Positions 4,494 through 9,405 of a DNA stretch of 40,631 nt are shown piece after piece. Source of the DNA: Pseudomonadota bacterium (GTDB taxonomy: Bacteria; Pseudomonadota; Gammaproteobacteria; Pseudomonadales; Moraxellaceae); NCBI GenBank assembly GCA_963204705.1, contig CAUJHL010000097.1, positions 1-40,631 of the forward strand, given 5' to 3'. Under the pieces are notes generated by a model that saw only the letters and a list, made by a program, of their open reading frames with translations, did not search any database and was not told where the DNA came from. The translations under genes were made by a program, and so were the position numbers. How positions within the stretch are numbered: position 1 is the first letter of the stretch; every line of letters begins with the position of its first letter.

Positions 4494-4890
4494 TGATCGT
4501 TTCTAGGGTGCGGTAATTTAGTCCTGTACAGAGCCGTTACACTTGCCTTGCAAATTACTTGCTACAAAATATTTTGTTAGACGATTATCTTTAATAAAAG
4601 ACAACTAAGTCTCAGAAATTCTGTGATTCAGTATACACATGTGCGCTAATCGTTAATTCACTACCGCATATCCCTCGTTTATAGTTTGCTGCAGTGTTAA
4701 AGCACAACTGTACTCACGTTTGTATTGTCTCTAGTGCTTCCCTTTGTACTGTCGGATGACATTACGTTCCCATTCAGTCGCTGGAACACACATCGCAACA
4801 TTCTGAGCAACAACTCGGCCCTCTACAAAGCCTATGCGTGAGCATGGTAGTGGGTCGCAGACAGCATCAACAAAAAACGAGGATCGTCAC
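4494..4890. other. 397-bp AT-rich intergenic region upstream of the GH3 operon
   Basis: I see no convincing gene here. The stretch is AT-rich compared with its neighbours, with TTTAATAAAAG near 4591. A weak promoter candidate is TTGCTG (4686-4691), 17 bases, then TGTACT (4709-4714). Near 4841-4867 there is a decayed stretch resembling the REP-like repeat (GAGCATGGT, then GCAGACAGC). An in-frame upward extension of the next gene to an ATG at 4834 has no ribosome-binding site and crosses this repeat-like stretch, so I treat it as non-coding. The long leader could hold regulation for the operon. Confidence 0.5.
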
Positions 4891-5685
4891 ATGGAACACC
4901 GTCTCGCCAAGCCTGCCGTGGAGCCGAAATGCGCATTTTGGAAGCGTGAACGCTTTAGCCTCTACCAGCTGCGCAAAATGTACTCGATTTATCGGGTGTA
5001 TTATGAAAACACCAATTTTGATCTCTTTATGAGCGATTTCAACAAGAAAACCGGTGCCTTTGTCATCACACACCCGGATACCCGCGAAATTGTCGGATTT
5101 TCAACACTGATGGATTGCAAGGTCAATGATGGTGAAAAAAGCTATCAGGCTATTTTCAGTGGCGACACAGTAATTGAAAAGGAATTTTGGGGTTCGCGCG
5201 CGCTGCAGGGAGCCATGTTCAAGTACCTGATCAAAGCCAAACTGCGCTATCCCACTCAGCCGATCTATTGGCTGCTGATTTCCAAGGGCTTCAAAACCTA
5301 TCTGTTGCTGGCAAATAATTATTTCACTTACTACCCACACCCAGAAGGCAAACACCAGCATCTGGCACCGATTGTGGAAGCGTACTGTAAACAATATTTT
5401 AATGACTATTATGACCCGCAAAATTCCCTGCTGAATTTTGGGGAAGGGTATCAGGCACTCAAAGCGGCAGTCGCGCCCATCACCGGCGATATGCGGGAAA
5501 ATAATCCCAAAATCCGTTTCTTTGAACAATGTAATCCGTCATGGGAAATGGGTACCGAACTGCCCTGTATTGGTGAAATCGCCTGGTCGGATATTGCCCG
5601 TTACGTTAAGCGTTTTGCTACCAAGCCCGTCAGTCAGGGTCGAATGGATGCGCTGATAGCCAAAAATCGCGGAGTTCCAGCGTGA
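4891..5685 (+). CDS. GNAT-like protein of unknown family, first gene of the GH3 operon
   Basis: This protein has 264 residues with no signal peptide or membrane segment, so it is probably cytoplasmic. I do not recognise a named family. The pattern IVGFSTLM (about 67-74), then AIFSGDTVIEKEFWGSRAL (about 87-105) and a later hydrophobic strand YWLLISKGF (126-134) resembles the core of acyl-CoA N-acyltransferases. The canonical Q/R-x-x-G-x-G/A pyrophosphate loop is absent. Aromatic residues are frequent (FTYYPH, QYFNDYYD). The start at 4891 is chosen because GAGG lies 8 bases upstream. The stop overlaps the next start in GTGA (5682-5685), which indicates translational coupling to the GH3 enzyme. 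An acyl-transfer or acyl-carrier-handling role is inference from context. Confidence 0.7.
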   Translation: MEHRLAKPAVEPKCAFWKRERFSLYQLRKMYSIYRVYYENTNFDLFMSDFNKKTGAFVITHPDTREIVGFSTLMDCKVNDGEKSYQAIFSGDTVIEKEFWGSRALQGAMFKYLIKAKLRYPTQPIYWLLISKGFKTYLLLANNYFTYYPHPEGKHQHLAPIVEAYCKQYFNDYYDPQNSLLNFGEGYQALKAAVAPITGDMRENNPKIRFFEQCNPSWEMGTELPCIGEIAWSDIARYVKRFATKPVSQGRMDALIAKNRGVPA

Positions 5686-7358
5686 ATCTGCTGAATCCGA
5701 TCAGTCATCAGGCGTTGAGGCTGGCGTGTTTGCGCAGTGACCGGGCATTTCAGGCAAATCGCTTCGATCTCCAGGCCATTCAGCGCAAACGCCTGGAATC
5801 CATAGTATCCCGTATACCAGCGCTGGCACGGGAAGGCAGTTGTCGCGCCTATAGCCAGTTACACGATCGGTATCCCGTCAGTCGCTATGCGGACTGGAAA
5901 GGACGTGTCCAAACCCTGCGGGAATCGCTCGGGCAGGAAGGCAAGGGAGCAGACACGCTGCCCCTGATCCGTGATCGCCTGGTACGGTTTCAGCCGACCA
6001 GTGGTTCGAGTGAACAGCTCAAACTGATTCCCTACACCAAGGGATTTTTGGCGGAGCTGGATGCAGCGATCGGCCCGTGGCTGAGTAGCCTCTATCGTAC
6101 CCACCCCGGTCTCAGTGCAGGCACGCATTACTGGTCGGTATCGTGGTTGCCCGAAAGTCAGCGTAAAGCGACCGAACTGCCAAATCTTAATGATGACAGT
6201 GCCTTGCTGAATGTCGGCAAACGGGTGTTATCCCAGTTGACGCAGGCCGTGCCCAGTGAAGTCGCCTTTGCGGGCAGTGCGCAGGATGCCCTGTTTGCCA
6301 CCCTGTGCTATCTCGTGGCGACACCACGGCTGAGCATGATGTCGGTCTGGAGTCCTACGTTTGCCCTTCAGCTGCTGGAGCAACTGCAGGACTGGAAATG
6401 GGAGATCGTCAGGGTGCTGGAAACCGGTCACTGGGCCACACGTCAGGCGACACTGAGTGCGCTCAAAGCCCCGCGTTCACGCGCTCGTGCTACGGTACTG
6501 GCTCGTTCAGCGGTAGAAACGCCGGAAGGTCTGCAACATCTCTGGCCAGATCTGGCTCTGGTGTCCGCCTGGGATACTGCCGGTGCCCGTGACTGGGCCC
6601 ATCAGCTACGTCAGCGCTTGCCGCAGGCCGGATTTGAAGGCAAAGGTCTGTGGGCGACCGAAGGGGTTGTCACGATCCCTTATCAAGGTCAGTATCCGTT
6701 GGCGTATCACAGTCATTTTTATGAGTTTGAGCGCCTGTCAGATGCTTCCTCCGACATCATTCCTTCGTGGCTGCTTAAAGAAGGGGATGAGGTCAGCCCC
6801 ATCCTGAGTGGGGGAAATGGCCTGCTTCGCTACAGTCTGGATGATCGGCTGGTGGTCACAGGATTTTATGGCAAAGTCCCGTGCTTTGAATTTCAGGGGC
6901 GGCGTTTTGGGGTGGATCTGGTGGGCGAAAAGCTCGATCCCGTTACGGCCCGTAGTGTTTTGGCAGATCTTCAGACCAGCCATCCTGACATTCGGCCGGT
7001 TTCGTTATTGGCGGTGGACACCATTGGCACGGGTGCGCCGTATTACCTTGGGCTGATTGAAGTCCCCGAGCACCTGAGTGCAGAAGACAGGCAGCGACTG
7101 ACAGCACTGCTTCCGGCGCGGCTGGATCGTTGTCTGAAACGGCATTTTCACTATGAGCTCGCCCGGGACCTTCAGCAGCTGGGCATGCCGAAAATCGTGT
7201 GTGTCAACGATGGCTGGGGTTATTACAAACATCTGGCAGTAAAAGACGGCATGATCGAAGGGAACATCAAACCTGAACCGCTACGGCGCATTCACCATAC
7301 GGCCCTGACCCAGCAGCCGGCCCGAAAAGGAGTCAGCCAGCATGACTGCGCGGCTTGA
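5682..7358 (+). CDS. GH3-family acyl-acid-amido synthetase (adenylate-forming)
   Basis: GH3 enzymes adenylate a carboxylic acid with ATP and transfer the acyl group to an amine, usually an amino acid. Family landmarks, in order: TSGSSEQLKLIP (106-117, P-loop-like ATP motif), WSPTFALQLLEQL (223-235), LWATEGVVTIPY (323-334, adenine-binding TEG motif), FYEFERL (346-352), GLLRYSLDDRLVVTGF (380-395, ribose-binding Asp region), PCFEFQGRR (400-408) and DLVGEKLD (412-419). The length of 558 is normal. It starts at GTG 5682 with GGAG 7 bases upstream and overlaps the preceding stop. It overlaps the next gene by 17 bases. The substrate acid and amine cannot be read from the sequence. Bacterial GH3 enzymes are sparsely characterised; the plant members conjugate auxin and jasmonate. 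Confidence 0.85.
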   Translation: MNLLNPISHQALRLACLRSDRAFQANRFDLQAIQRKRLESIVSRIPALAREGSCRAYSQLHDRYPVSRYADWKGRVQTLRESLGQEGKGADTLPLIRDRLVRFQPTSGSSEQLKLIPYTKGFLAELDAAIGPWLSSLYRTHPGLSAGTHYWSVSWLPESQRKATELPNLNDDSALLNVGKRVLSQLTQAVPSEVAFAGSAQDALFATLCYLVATPRLSMMSVWSPTFALQLLEQLQDWKWEIVRVLETGHWATRQATLSALKAPRSRARATVLARSAVETPEGLQHLWPDLALVSAWDTAGARDWAHQLRQRLPQAGFEGKGLWATEGVVTIPYQGQYPLAYHSHFYEFERLSDASSDIIPSWLLKEGDEVSPILSGGNGLLRYSLDDRLVVTGFYGKVPCFEFQGRRFGVDLVGEKLDPVTARSVLADLQTSHPDIRPVSLLAVDTIGTGAPYYLGLIEVPEHLSAEDRQRLTALLPARLDRCLKRHFHYELARDLQQLGMPKIVCVNDGWGYYKHLAVKDGMIEGNIKPEPLRRIHHTALTQQPARKGVSQHDCAA

Positions 7359-8703
7359 GATGGATACCCGTTATCCCTGCGGGTCGGAGCACTTCATCAC
7401 CTCGTCACATGCGGCGCGGACTGGCTGGGAAATAGCGAAAAGTGATTTGATAGCCTCAGGAATTGAGGAATCCGAAGCGATTTTTCAGGACCCGGACTTT
7501 CCGGAACTGATGATTCGAGCCGCACGGCCAGCAGATAACGCCGTCTTGCTCAGGCTGATGCGGGTAACCATGCCCTCGAATGGCCTCCAGCTGAGCTTTG
7601 AACGGGAGCCGGACTATCTGAAAAGCACCGCGGCACTGTATGACTTGCCGCAGGCCCTTGTGGTCGTGGAGAAGTCCTCACCAGACCGCGTGCTGGGGCT
7701 GTATAACATCGGCCAGCGCTGGTGTTATGTTAATGGAATTCGGCAGTTACAGCGCTATGTCGGTGATTTAAGGGTCGTGCCTGAGGCTCAGGGCAAAGGC
7801 GTTGTGCGGTTGTACATGCGTCAATTACGGCAACTGATGCCCGCTCCACACTATTGTCAAGCCGTGATACTGGCGGACAATGCTCCGGCGAGGGCAATGC
7901 TGACCCAAAAACGCGCGGATTTTCCGAATTACTTTGAAGAATGCGCAGTGATTACCAAGCTGATCACAGGCGATCGTATGAGGCGTGTTCAGCCTGCAGT
8001 CGCGGATCCTGCCCAAACGCGCTGGCGCACCGCAACTGCCGCCGATGCCGCTGCCCTGACTGCCTTTGTGCAAAAGATGGCCACTTATTATACCAATCTC
8101 CCTGCCTATGATTTTGAGACATTACGGGATCATCCCAACAGTGGGTATTGGCTGGGGCTGAGGCTGAGTGATTTTCGGGTGCAGGTACGCGTGCGAACGC
8201 ACATACGTGATCTACTGGATGGGTTCATCACTCCGGTGGCTACACTGAAAGGTGAGCTTGAAACGGTTGACTGTGAGGAAATCGTTGCCCTGTATGGACT
8301 CTGGAATCAGAAGTCCTTCAAGCAAACGCGCATGCGTCGCTACCACCTGCTCCTGAAACTGGCACGGCCTGCTTACAACTGGTGGGCCAAACGAGCGCAG
8401 CGGATAGAGTTACCGGAAGAAGGCGGCGTGTTGGATTACCGAATGGTGCATAGCCCCTTATGCCTCCCAGAAGTTGCGGTGATGGAGGATTTGCTGAGTG
8501 ACGCCTTGCAACAAGCCCGTGCACAGGGCATACGGGCGATTTGTCTTAGCCTGGGTAAAACCGATCCGCGCCGTCCGGCCTATGAACGCTTTATCGGGGA
8601 AGAAACCATCGGAGTCAGCGGTTATTACAGCTTCGGTGAACACCGTCCTGAGGCGCTGGATGCAAAGGGCTACATTCCTTATTTCGAGGCGGGAAAGCTT
8701 TAG
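7342..8703 (+). CDS. Tandem GNAT-family acyltransferase, third gene of the GH3 operon
   Basis: The protein has 453 residues. The first half (about 56-210) is a GNAT domain: LMIRAARPADNAVLLRLM at its start, VGDLRVVPEAQGKGVVRLYM (140-159) with the acetyl-CoA loop Q150-G-K-G, and ILADNAPARAML (176-187) after it. A second copy is suggested from about 217, where WRTATAADAAALTAFVQKM repeats the opening pattern. It lacks a clear CoA loop, so it may be a degenerate domain. An AAAAGGAG site at 7325-7332, 9 bases upstream, supports ATG 7342, which overlaps the GH3 stop. It probably acetylates or acylates a small molecule or amine in the same pathway. The substrate is unknown. Confidence 0.8.
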   Translation: MTARLEMDTRYPCGSEHFITSSHAARTGWEIAKSDLIASGIEESEAIFQDPDFPELMIRAARPADNAVLLRLMRVTMPSNGLQLSFEREPDYLKSTAALYDLPQALVVVEKSSPDRVLGLYNIGQRWCYVNGIRQLQRYVGDLRVVPEAQGKGVVRLYMRQLRQLMPAPHYCQAVILADNAPARAMLTQKRADFPNYFEECAVITKLITGDRMRRVQPAVADPAQTRWRTATAADAAALTAFVQKMATYYTNLPAYDFETLRDHPNSGYWLGLRLSDFRVQVRVRTHIRDLLDGFITPVATLKGELETVDCEEIVALYGLWNQKSFKQTRMRRYHLLLKLARPAYNWWAKRAQRIELPEEGGVLDYRMVHSPLCLPEVAVMEDLLSDALQQARAQGIRAICLSLGKTDPRRPAYERFIGEETIGVSGYYSFGEHRPEALDAKGYIPYFEAGKL

Positions 8704-8802: not shown

Positions 8803-8895
8803 CGTCCTTTTTGTCGGACAGCGTTGCCGAGCCTGATGAATATTGATACAGTGGAAACTGTCGACAAAATAACCAGTAAGACTAGGCAGAGTGTC

Positions 8896-9405
8896 ATGAA
8901 ACCGTCAGCCAGCATTATCACTCCTGAAACTGCATTTGCCCATCGTCTGCTCATGCTCAGCGCTTGCCTTCTGGTGACTGTGAACAGTCACGCTGTAATG
9001 CCCATGAGTGACGAAGAGCTGGATCAGCGCTATTTATCGCCGGCTAATGGCGTGGTACTGATCGTCAAGCCAAGTGAGGGTGAGCTGAACGCCTCCCGTG
9101 ACCCTTGGCGTGCAGTAGAAGCCCTTAACCGTACCAATCAGGTGGTGGCCTACAGTGGCTGGCAGTATCTGTCTCCCTCCTCAGGGGAGCTTACCAAGCA
9201 AGCCACCCTGTTTCAGCAACTGACCTCCTCCGTGATCGGCGAAGAACGTATCAGCTACCGGTTTGCAGGCAATCTGCAGGATATTTATTCGATCGCCGAA
9301 GACACCAATTTCAGCTTTTATAACAATGACGTTGAAATCCAGGGCATGACCCGTAATCTGGAGTTGGAAGTGGGGTACTATCGTACCCGCCAACAATCCT
9401 TCTAA
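8896..9405 (+). CDS. Small exported protein of unknown function
   Basis: The protein has 169 residues from ATG 8896. It has a signal-peptide-like N-terminus: a weakly basic start, the hydrophobic core LLMLSACLLVTV (about 19-30) and a likely cleavage after NSHA. The mature part begins VMPMSDEELDQRYLSPANG and has no membrane segment or cysteine, so it is probably periplasmic or secreted. I recognise no family. The opening MSDEELDQ loosely recalls the MTDxEL start of some exported Acinetobacter proteins; that is a weak resemblance only. In-frame starts at 8824 (TTG) and 8836 (ATG) would place a hydrophilic stretch before the signal. A terminator follows at 9498-9526, so the gene seems to be its own unit. 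Confidence 0.65.
   Translation: MKPSASIITPETAFAHRLLMLSACLLVTVNSHAVMPMSDEELDQRYLSPANGVVLIVKPSEGELNASRDPWRAVEALNRTNQVVAYSGWQYLSPSSGELTKQATLFQQLTSSVIGEERISYRFAGNLQDIYSIAEDTNFSFYNNDVEIQGMTRNLELEVGYYRTRQQSF

Follow-up and report, generated by a model that had tools for sequence, protein, structure and literature searches.

The window analyzed here, a 40,631-nucleotide stretch from a Moraxellaceae bacterium (GCA_963204705.1, contig CAUJHL010000097.1), carries three overlapping genes at positions 4891-8703 that encode a first protein (P1), a GH3-type acyl-acid-amido synthetase and a third protein (P3). We consider it probable that this trio forms the core of a pathway whose product is an acylated amino acid or amine and, most likely, resembles a lipid. 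Gene anatomy, families, folds, conservation of the trio and linkage to exporters were computed, and from these we infer substrates, order of steps, product and export.

Gene families and predicted folds

All three genes are open reading frames (ORFs) on the plus strand. The P1 gene (4891-5685) encodes 264 amino acids with a predicted GNAT fold and a putative role as acyltransferase partner of the GH3 enzyme. The GH3 gene (5682-7358, 558 amino acids) begins with a GTG codon that overlaps the P1 stop codon (GTGA, 5682-5685), and P3 (7342-8703, 453 amino acids, tandem GNAT fold) overlaps the GH3 gene by 17 bases (7342-7358); both overlaps are exactly those given in a preliminary description of the locus. 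The P1 start, ATG at 4891, is preceded by GAGGAT approximately 11 nt upstream, and a longer ORF from 4834 also exists. A 4-base overlap, as in the window, is the commonest P1-GH3 offset in about 94 related loci.

Hidden Markov model (HMM) searches identified Pfam GH3 domains (PF03321/PF23571/PF23572) in the second protein, which upholds its earlier assignment as an acyl-acid-amido synthetase. The N-terminal, central and C-terminal domains match at E values of 6e-23, 2.5e-13 and 0.0015; the first two lie above the Pfam cut-off (81.9 and 50.4 bits vs. 23.6) and the third is slightly below it (19.7 bits vs. 23.6). The nucleotide motifs TSGSSEQLK, WATE and GLLRYSLDD, on whose conservation in the closest homologues the preliminary description had staked its reading, are kept there, and residues T106, G108 and K114, T326 and E327, and G380, R383, Y384 and D388 are invariant or nearly so.

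P1 matched no Pfam or NCBIfam family, and sequence searches of the PDB and of viral contigs also gave no match. AlphaFold models of P1 and P3 were built from natural homologues. The P1 model (mean pLDDT 89) has a GNAT fold and, in Foldseek, resembles GNATs such as AAC(2'), Eis-like proteins and ElaA (E about 7e-5 to 1e-4); it has 44 PDB matches at E ≤ 0.001, and among the matches listed almost all are GNATs. The first protein had been described as belonging to no recognised family, which holds for Pfam and NCBIfam, whereas its fold can be assigned. Nine residues (D92, T93, W100, G101, K132, G133, T136, Y137 and C226) are invariant in 97 relatives, and all but C226 map in the model to strand 4, the next loop, strand 5 and the following helix. 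These elements of the GNAT fold hold the acyl donor and the catalytic groups. The canonical Q/RxxGxG/A acyl-CoA loop is absent from P1; in its place is FWGSRAL, of which only W, G and L are invariant. Based on the model, P1 appears to represent a new GNAT-fold family of putative acyltransferases.

P3 passes the Pfam cut-off for Acetyltransf_1 (PF00583) with a weak match (26.3 vs. 20.7 bits). Its model (pLDDT 80) consists of two GNAT-like halves, with very low confidence for the N-terminal 44 residues. The top Foldseek matches are N-myristoyltransferases (E about 1e-10, 7-14% identity), and P3 has no match to the N-myristoyltransferase Pfam family up to an E value of 1; the model suggests a resemblance of fold only, not family membership. 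Residues 287-318 (approximately bases 8200-8295), partly of low confidence in the model, contain an insertion of about 27 residues that is absent from all aligned relatives. Since P1 folds as a GNAT and P3 matches Acetyltransf_1, the trio had rightly been described as including two acyltransferase-like proteins.

Recurrence and co-inheritance of the trio

A scan of 84,980 species genomes with a P1 alignment yielded 544 relatives, the best 80 of which were kept as named loci. GH3 adjoins P1 in all 80, spanning Acinetobacter, Alkanindiges, Agitococcus, Alcanivorax and Marinobacter, and P3 follows in 79 by a strict rule, overlapping in the remaining one. Because these loci were picked by P1 similarity, they are uninformative about P1 without GH3 at greater distance; several lineages are represented by contigs of metagenome-assembled genomes (MAGs) only. 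Within the window's own family, which includes Acinetobacter, Alkanindiges, Agitococcus and Fluviicoccus, GH3 was found in 11 of 37 sampled genomes, with P1 directly upstream and P3 downstream. Among Acinetobacter genomes this GH3 occurs in 56 of 149 (~38%); two of these (G834 and G915) hold GH3 fragments only, which suggests decay of the operon in some species.

Among 398 Pseudomonadota genomes, P1 was present in six, always adjacent to GH3, while 11 had a GH3 above the cut-off, five of them without P1. The P1-linked GH3s form one clade against other bacterial GH3s (branch support 99/99), and the pairwise divergences of P1, GH3 and P3 are strongly correlated (r 0.88-0.95, 0/999 permutations). 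The grouping is not due to chance: the preliminary description had tied its proposal to the three genes being neighbours in other genera, and they recur in all 80 fetched loci and in further families.

Across the 245 genomes of the order that were examined, most primary copies of P1 lie next to GH3, and there are further copies without an adjacent GH3. One further copy lies inside a larger cluster with GH3 ~6 kb away (L170), another next to desaturase and SnoaL-like genes at the end of a contig (L177), and six are orphan paralogues with no GH3 or P3 nearby (L171-L176). Four of the orphans (L171-L174), from four genomes of one genus, share a conserved neighbourhood with carbonic anhydrase and M17 aminopeptidase genes; the other two (L175, L176) are from two further genomes. 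On two Azospirillum plasmids (L167, L168), P1 relatives of ~21% identity precede a porin gene (assigned to Pfam Porin_4 in L167), and no GH3 was detected. The orphan paralogues and the Azospirillum plasmids led us to reject a strict rule that P1 never occurs without GH3. An apparent P1-GH3 fusion in a Moraxellaceae MAG (UBA2032; L039/L110) was also rejected, as an assembly effect, because unknown bases put X residues at the junction and P3 on the same contig is split. A trio whose contig was binned into a Pedobacter MAG (L096) nests within Moraxellaceae in the tree and is probably a binning error.

Exporters and gene context in relatives

The trio is linked to tripartite pumps in many relatives. 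In 36 of the 80 named loci, all from Acinetobacter (including A. baylyi, A. pittii and A. nosocomialis), the order is EmrA-EmrB-P1-GH3-TolC-P3. In a further 17 (Moraxellaceae, Alcanivorax, Marinobacter), P1-GH3-P3 is followed by genes for a membrane fusion protein (MFP) and a resistance-nodulation-division (RND) pump; a divergent gene for an AraC-type regulator and one for an AdeT-like solute-binding protein are often present as well. The two exporter types fall in separate parts of the GH3 tree. Trios without a pump occupy a site at what we take, from reading the sequence, to be a ClpB gene (20 loci), and the remaining seven loci are truncated or other. The full EmrA-EmrB-P1-GH3-TolC-P3 form is also found on a chromosome-sized record labelled as an A. 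baumannii plasmid (L169, NZ_CP064203.1), likely a mislabelled chromosome.

In distant relatives, P1, GH3 and usually P3 belong to larger clusters that also encode a Rieske oxygenase, fatty acid desaturases and a fatty acid hydroxylase, as well as SnoaL-like, AurF-like, radical SAM/B12 and hexapeptide-repeat proteins. Burkholderia arboris has P1-P3, with GH3-Rieske ~3 kb further on. At L170:6135-15999, P1 and GH3 are embedded among three Rieske-type oxygenases, a ferredoxin, a fatty acid hydroxylase, an SDR and an AurF-like protein, in what looks like an undescribed lipid biosynthetic cluster. A mobilizable IncFIB/IncFII plasmid of Citrobacter portucalensis (L165, NZ_CP134684.1) carries P1-GH3-radical SAM-radical SAM-P3-radical SAM-radical SAM-PAP2. 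Another distant cluster encodes an unusual 919-amino-acid protein (L024:5315-8071) in which FG-GAP repeats and an ASPIC/UnbV domain are joined to a membrane part resembling NQR2/RnfD.

Proposed pathway and alternatives

In the pathway that we propose, the GH3 enzyme would use ATP to activate a carboxylic acid (probably a fatty acid) and then link the activated acid to an amino acid or related compound through the amine of the latter. P1 and P3 would make further acyl transfers or prepare the substrate, with P3 using a long-chain acyl donor in the manner of N-myristoyltransferases. The product would be exported in many relatives by a tripartite pump, of EmrA-EmrB-TolC or MFP-RND type, whose genes lie in the trio's operon; in the window's lineage, since no pump is linked there, it would leave via an unlinked pump or stay in the envelope. 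The strongest argument for a secreted product is the recruitment of two unrelated tripartite pumps, and that for a fatty acid part is the presence of lipid-tailoring genes in the distant clusters. The earlier suggestion that the set could first synthesise an amide-linked small molecule or lipid and subsequently modify it agrees with these exporters and tailoring genes and the precedent of OlsH (see below), with the product itself a matter of inference. A proline-lipid surfactant reported for Alcanivorax was considered as a conceivable trio product.

Several observations weigh against this pathway. The canonical Q/RxxGxG/A loop is missing from both P1 and P3, which makes their use of acyl-CoA uncertain; either might take carrier-bound acyl groups instead. 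The identity of the window GH3 to plant GH3s is very low, the open-access literature shows no assay of any member of this GH3 clade, P1 paralogues without GH3 exist in some genomes, and the window locus has neither an exporter nor lipid-tailoring genes.

The reading that survives best among the alternatives, although we regard it as unlikely, is that an OlsH-like GH3, with P1 or P3 replacing OlsI, makes a non-secreted membrane lipid similar to ornithine or lysine lipids. OlsH catalyzes such a reaction in planctomycetes, using free fatty acids (PMC12493201), the fold of P3 resembles long-chain acyltransferases, and the window and 20 named loci have no linked exporter. However, two thirds of the named loci (36 EmrAB and 17 RND of 80) do have linked tripartite exporters, which would be unexpected for a resident inner-membrane lipid, and the operon contains no OlsI-like hydrolase or OlsG methyltransferase. 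Moreover, a protein of PF13444 (the Pfam family of OlsB, for which it is not specific) is encoded at another site in the window genome, and 6 of 10 other trio-bearing genomes of the family have such a protein too.

A second alternative, compatible with the biosynthetic pathway proposed above, concerns P1 only: it could be a degenerate GNAT that serves as a non-enzymatic, obligate structural partner of the GH3 clade, similar in role to the MbtH-like proteins that accompany peptide synthetases. Its tight coupling to GH3, their strongly correlated divergence and the altered pyrophosphate loop would fit such a role, which we nevertheless judge improbable given that the positions conserved without exception in 97 relatives map to the parts of the model corresponding to the GNAT catalytic cleft and that P1 paralogues occur without GH3. 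Plant GH3s conjugate auxin or jasmonate to amino acids. Detoxification, in which GH3 would conjugate a foreign or internal toxic acid to an amino acid, the GNATs would cap related amines and the pump would remove the conjugate, accords with the multidrug families of the linked exporters (EmrAB, RND) and the patchy distribution (56 of 149 Acinetobacter genomes), but it is very doubtful, as the distant clusters with desaturases, hydroxylases, AurF-like oxygenases and radical SAM enzymes look biosynthetic and three co-inherited acyl-transfer enzymes exceed a detoxifier's needs.

Beyond an acylated amino acid or amine as product, we tentatively raise a broader possibility, to which we give somewhat less than even chances: the trio may define an undescribed class of secreted-metabolite pathway in Pseudomonadota, in which a GH3 clade, a dedicated GNAT-fold P1 and a tandem GNAT P3, joined to unrelated pumps by lineage, supply many Acinetobacter species, among them members of the A. 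calcoaceticus-baumannii complex, with an acyl-amino compound that is secreted as a signal, surfactant or antibiotic. No account of an Acinetobacter GH3 operon was found in the open-access literature. If our reading is correct, about one third of Acinetobacter species and hydrocarbon degraders such as Alkanindiges and Alcanivorax would have in common a metabolite pathway, so far uncharacterised, that has a clear enzyme set and in many carriers a dedicated exporter. Bacterial GH3 enzymes would gain a second biological role beyond ornithine lipids, P1 would name a new GNAT-fold family, and the question would be directly testable in the genetically tractable A. baylyi.

Surroundings of the window locus

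The window trio occupies its own genomic site in a 2.4 Mb genome, without a linked pump. Upstream are genes that, from their translations, we take to be CorA-like and PlsB-like; downstream are presumably a RimI-like gene and a ribosomal protein operon, read in the same way. The 397-bp region preceding P1 (4494-4890), a presumed promoter region, had been described as a long AT-rich leader; its AT-richness is only mild (42% GC vs. 53% for the whole window). It contains a single promoter-like site (4657-4685), of a kind expected by chance. An RNA leader or riboswitch upstream of the trio was rejected, as an Rfam search of 4494-4890 gave no match. A possible fourth gene on the plus strand (8893-9405), separated from P3 by ~190 bp, encodes a small protein with a signal-peptide-like start, and its membership of the operon is uncertain. 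The protein shares 20% identity (E 4e-5) with that encoded directly downstream of the trio in Alkanindiges (L040:13682-14326); a Pfam search gave no match for either.

Comparison with known systems

The window GH3 has its Pfam domains and three nucleotide motifs in common with plant GH3s (such as GH3.12 and GH3.15; PDB 4epm and 6avh), whereas the sequence match to these structures is marginal (E 0.002-0.006) and the hormone substrates of the plant enzymes are not expected for it. To our knowledge, plant GH3s have no GNAT partners. The P3 model shares the tandem GNAT fold of N-myristoyltransferases and tandem-GNAT acetyltransferases (e.g., MAB_4324), at TM-scores of only about 0.5-0.6 and 7-14% identity. 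OlsB and other PF13444 N-acyltransferases resemble the trio in the GNAT-like N-acylation of amino acids in lipids that it would carry out, but neither P1 nor P3 matches PF13444. The trio as a simple OlsB replacement was rejected, given the co-occurring PF13444 proteins described above.

The nearest characterised system is OlsH, a GH3-like enzyme of planctomycetes that uses ATP to couple free fatty acid to ornithine, giving N-acyl ornithine; the authors who described it suggest that further N-acyl amino acids may be products of other GH3s in bacteria, and GNATs are unmentioned in the main text of their paper (PMC12493201). OlsH/OlsI of Singulisphaera acidiphila (PMC12493201), like the trio, has a GH3-like ligase acting first and an operon with an acyl-transfer enzyme, and the GH3 nucleotide motifs are recognisable in both. 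However, OlsI is an alpha/beta hydrolase and OlsG an N-methyltransferase (PMC12493201), and neither is in the trio operon; the two alpha/beta hydrolases of the window lie >15 kb away. Because these defining partners are absent, the trio does not belong to the OlsH/OlsI pathway, from which it also differs in its two GNAT-fold partners and, in many relatives, its exporters. With an OlsH-like first step and no OlsH partners, the GH3 enzyme would form one amide and the GNAT-fold proteins would handle further acyl groups.

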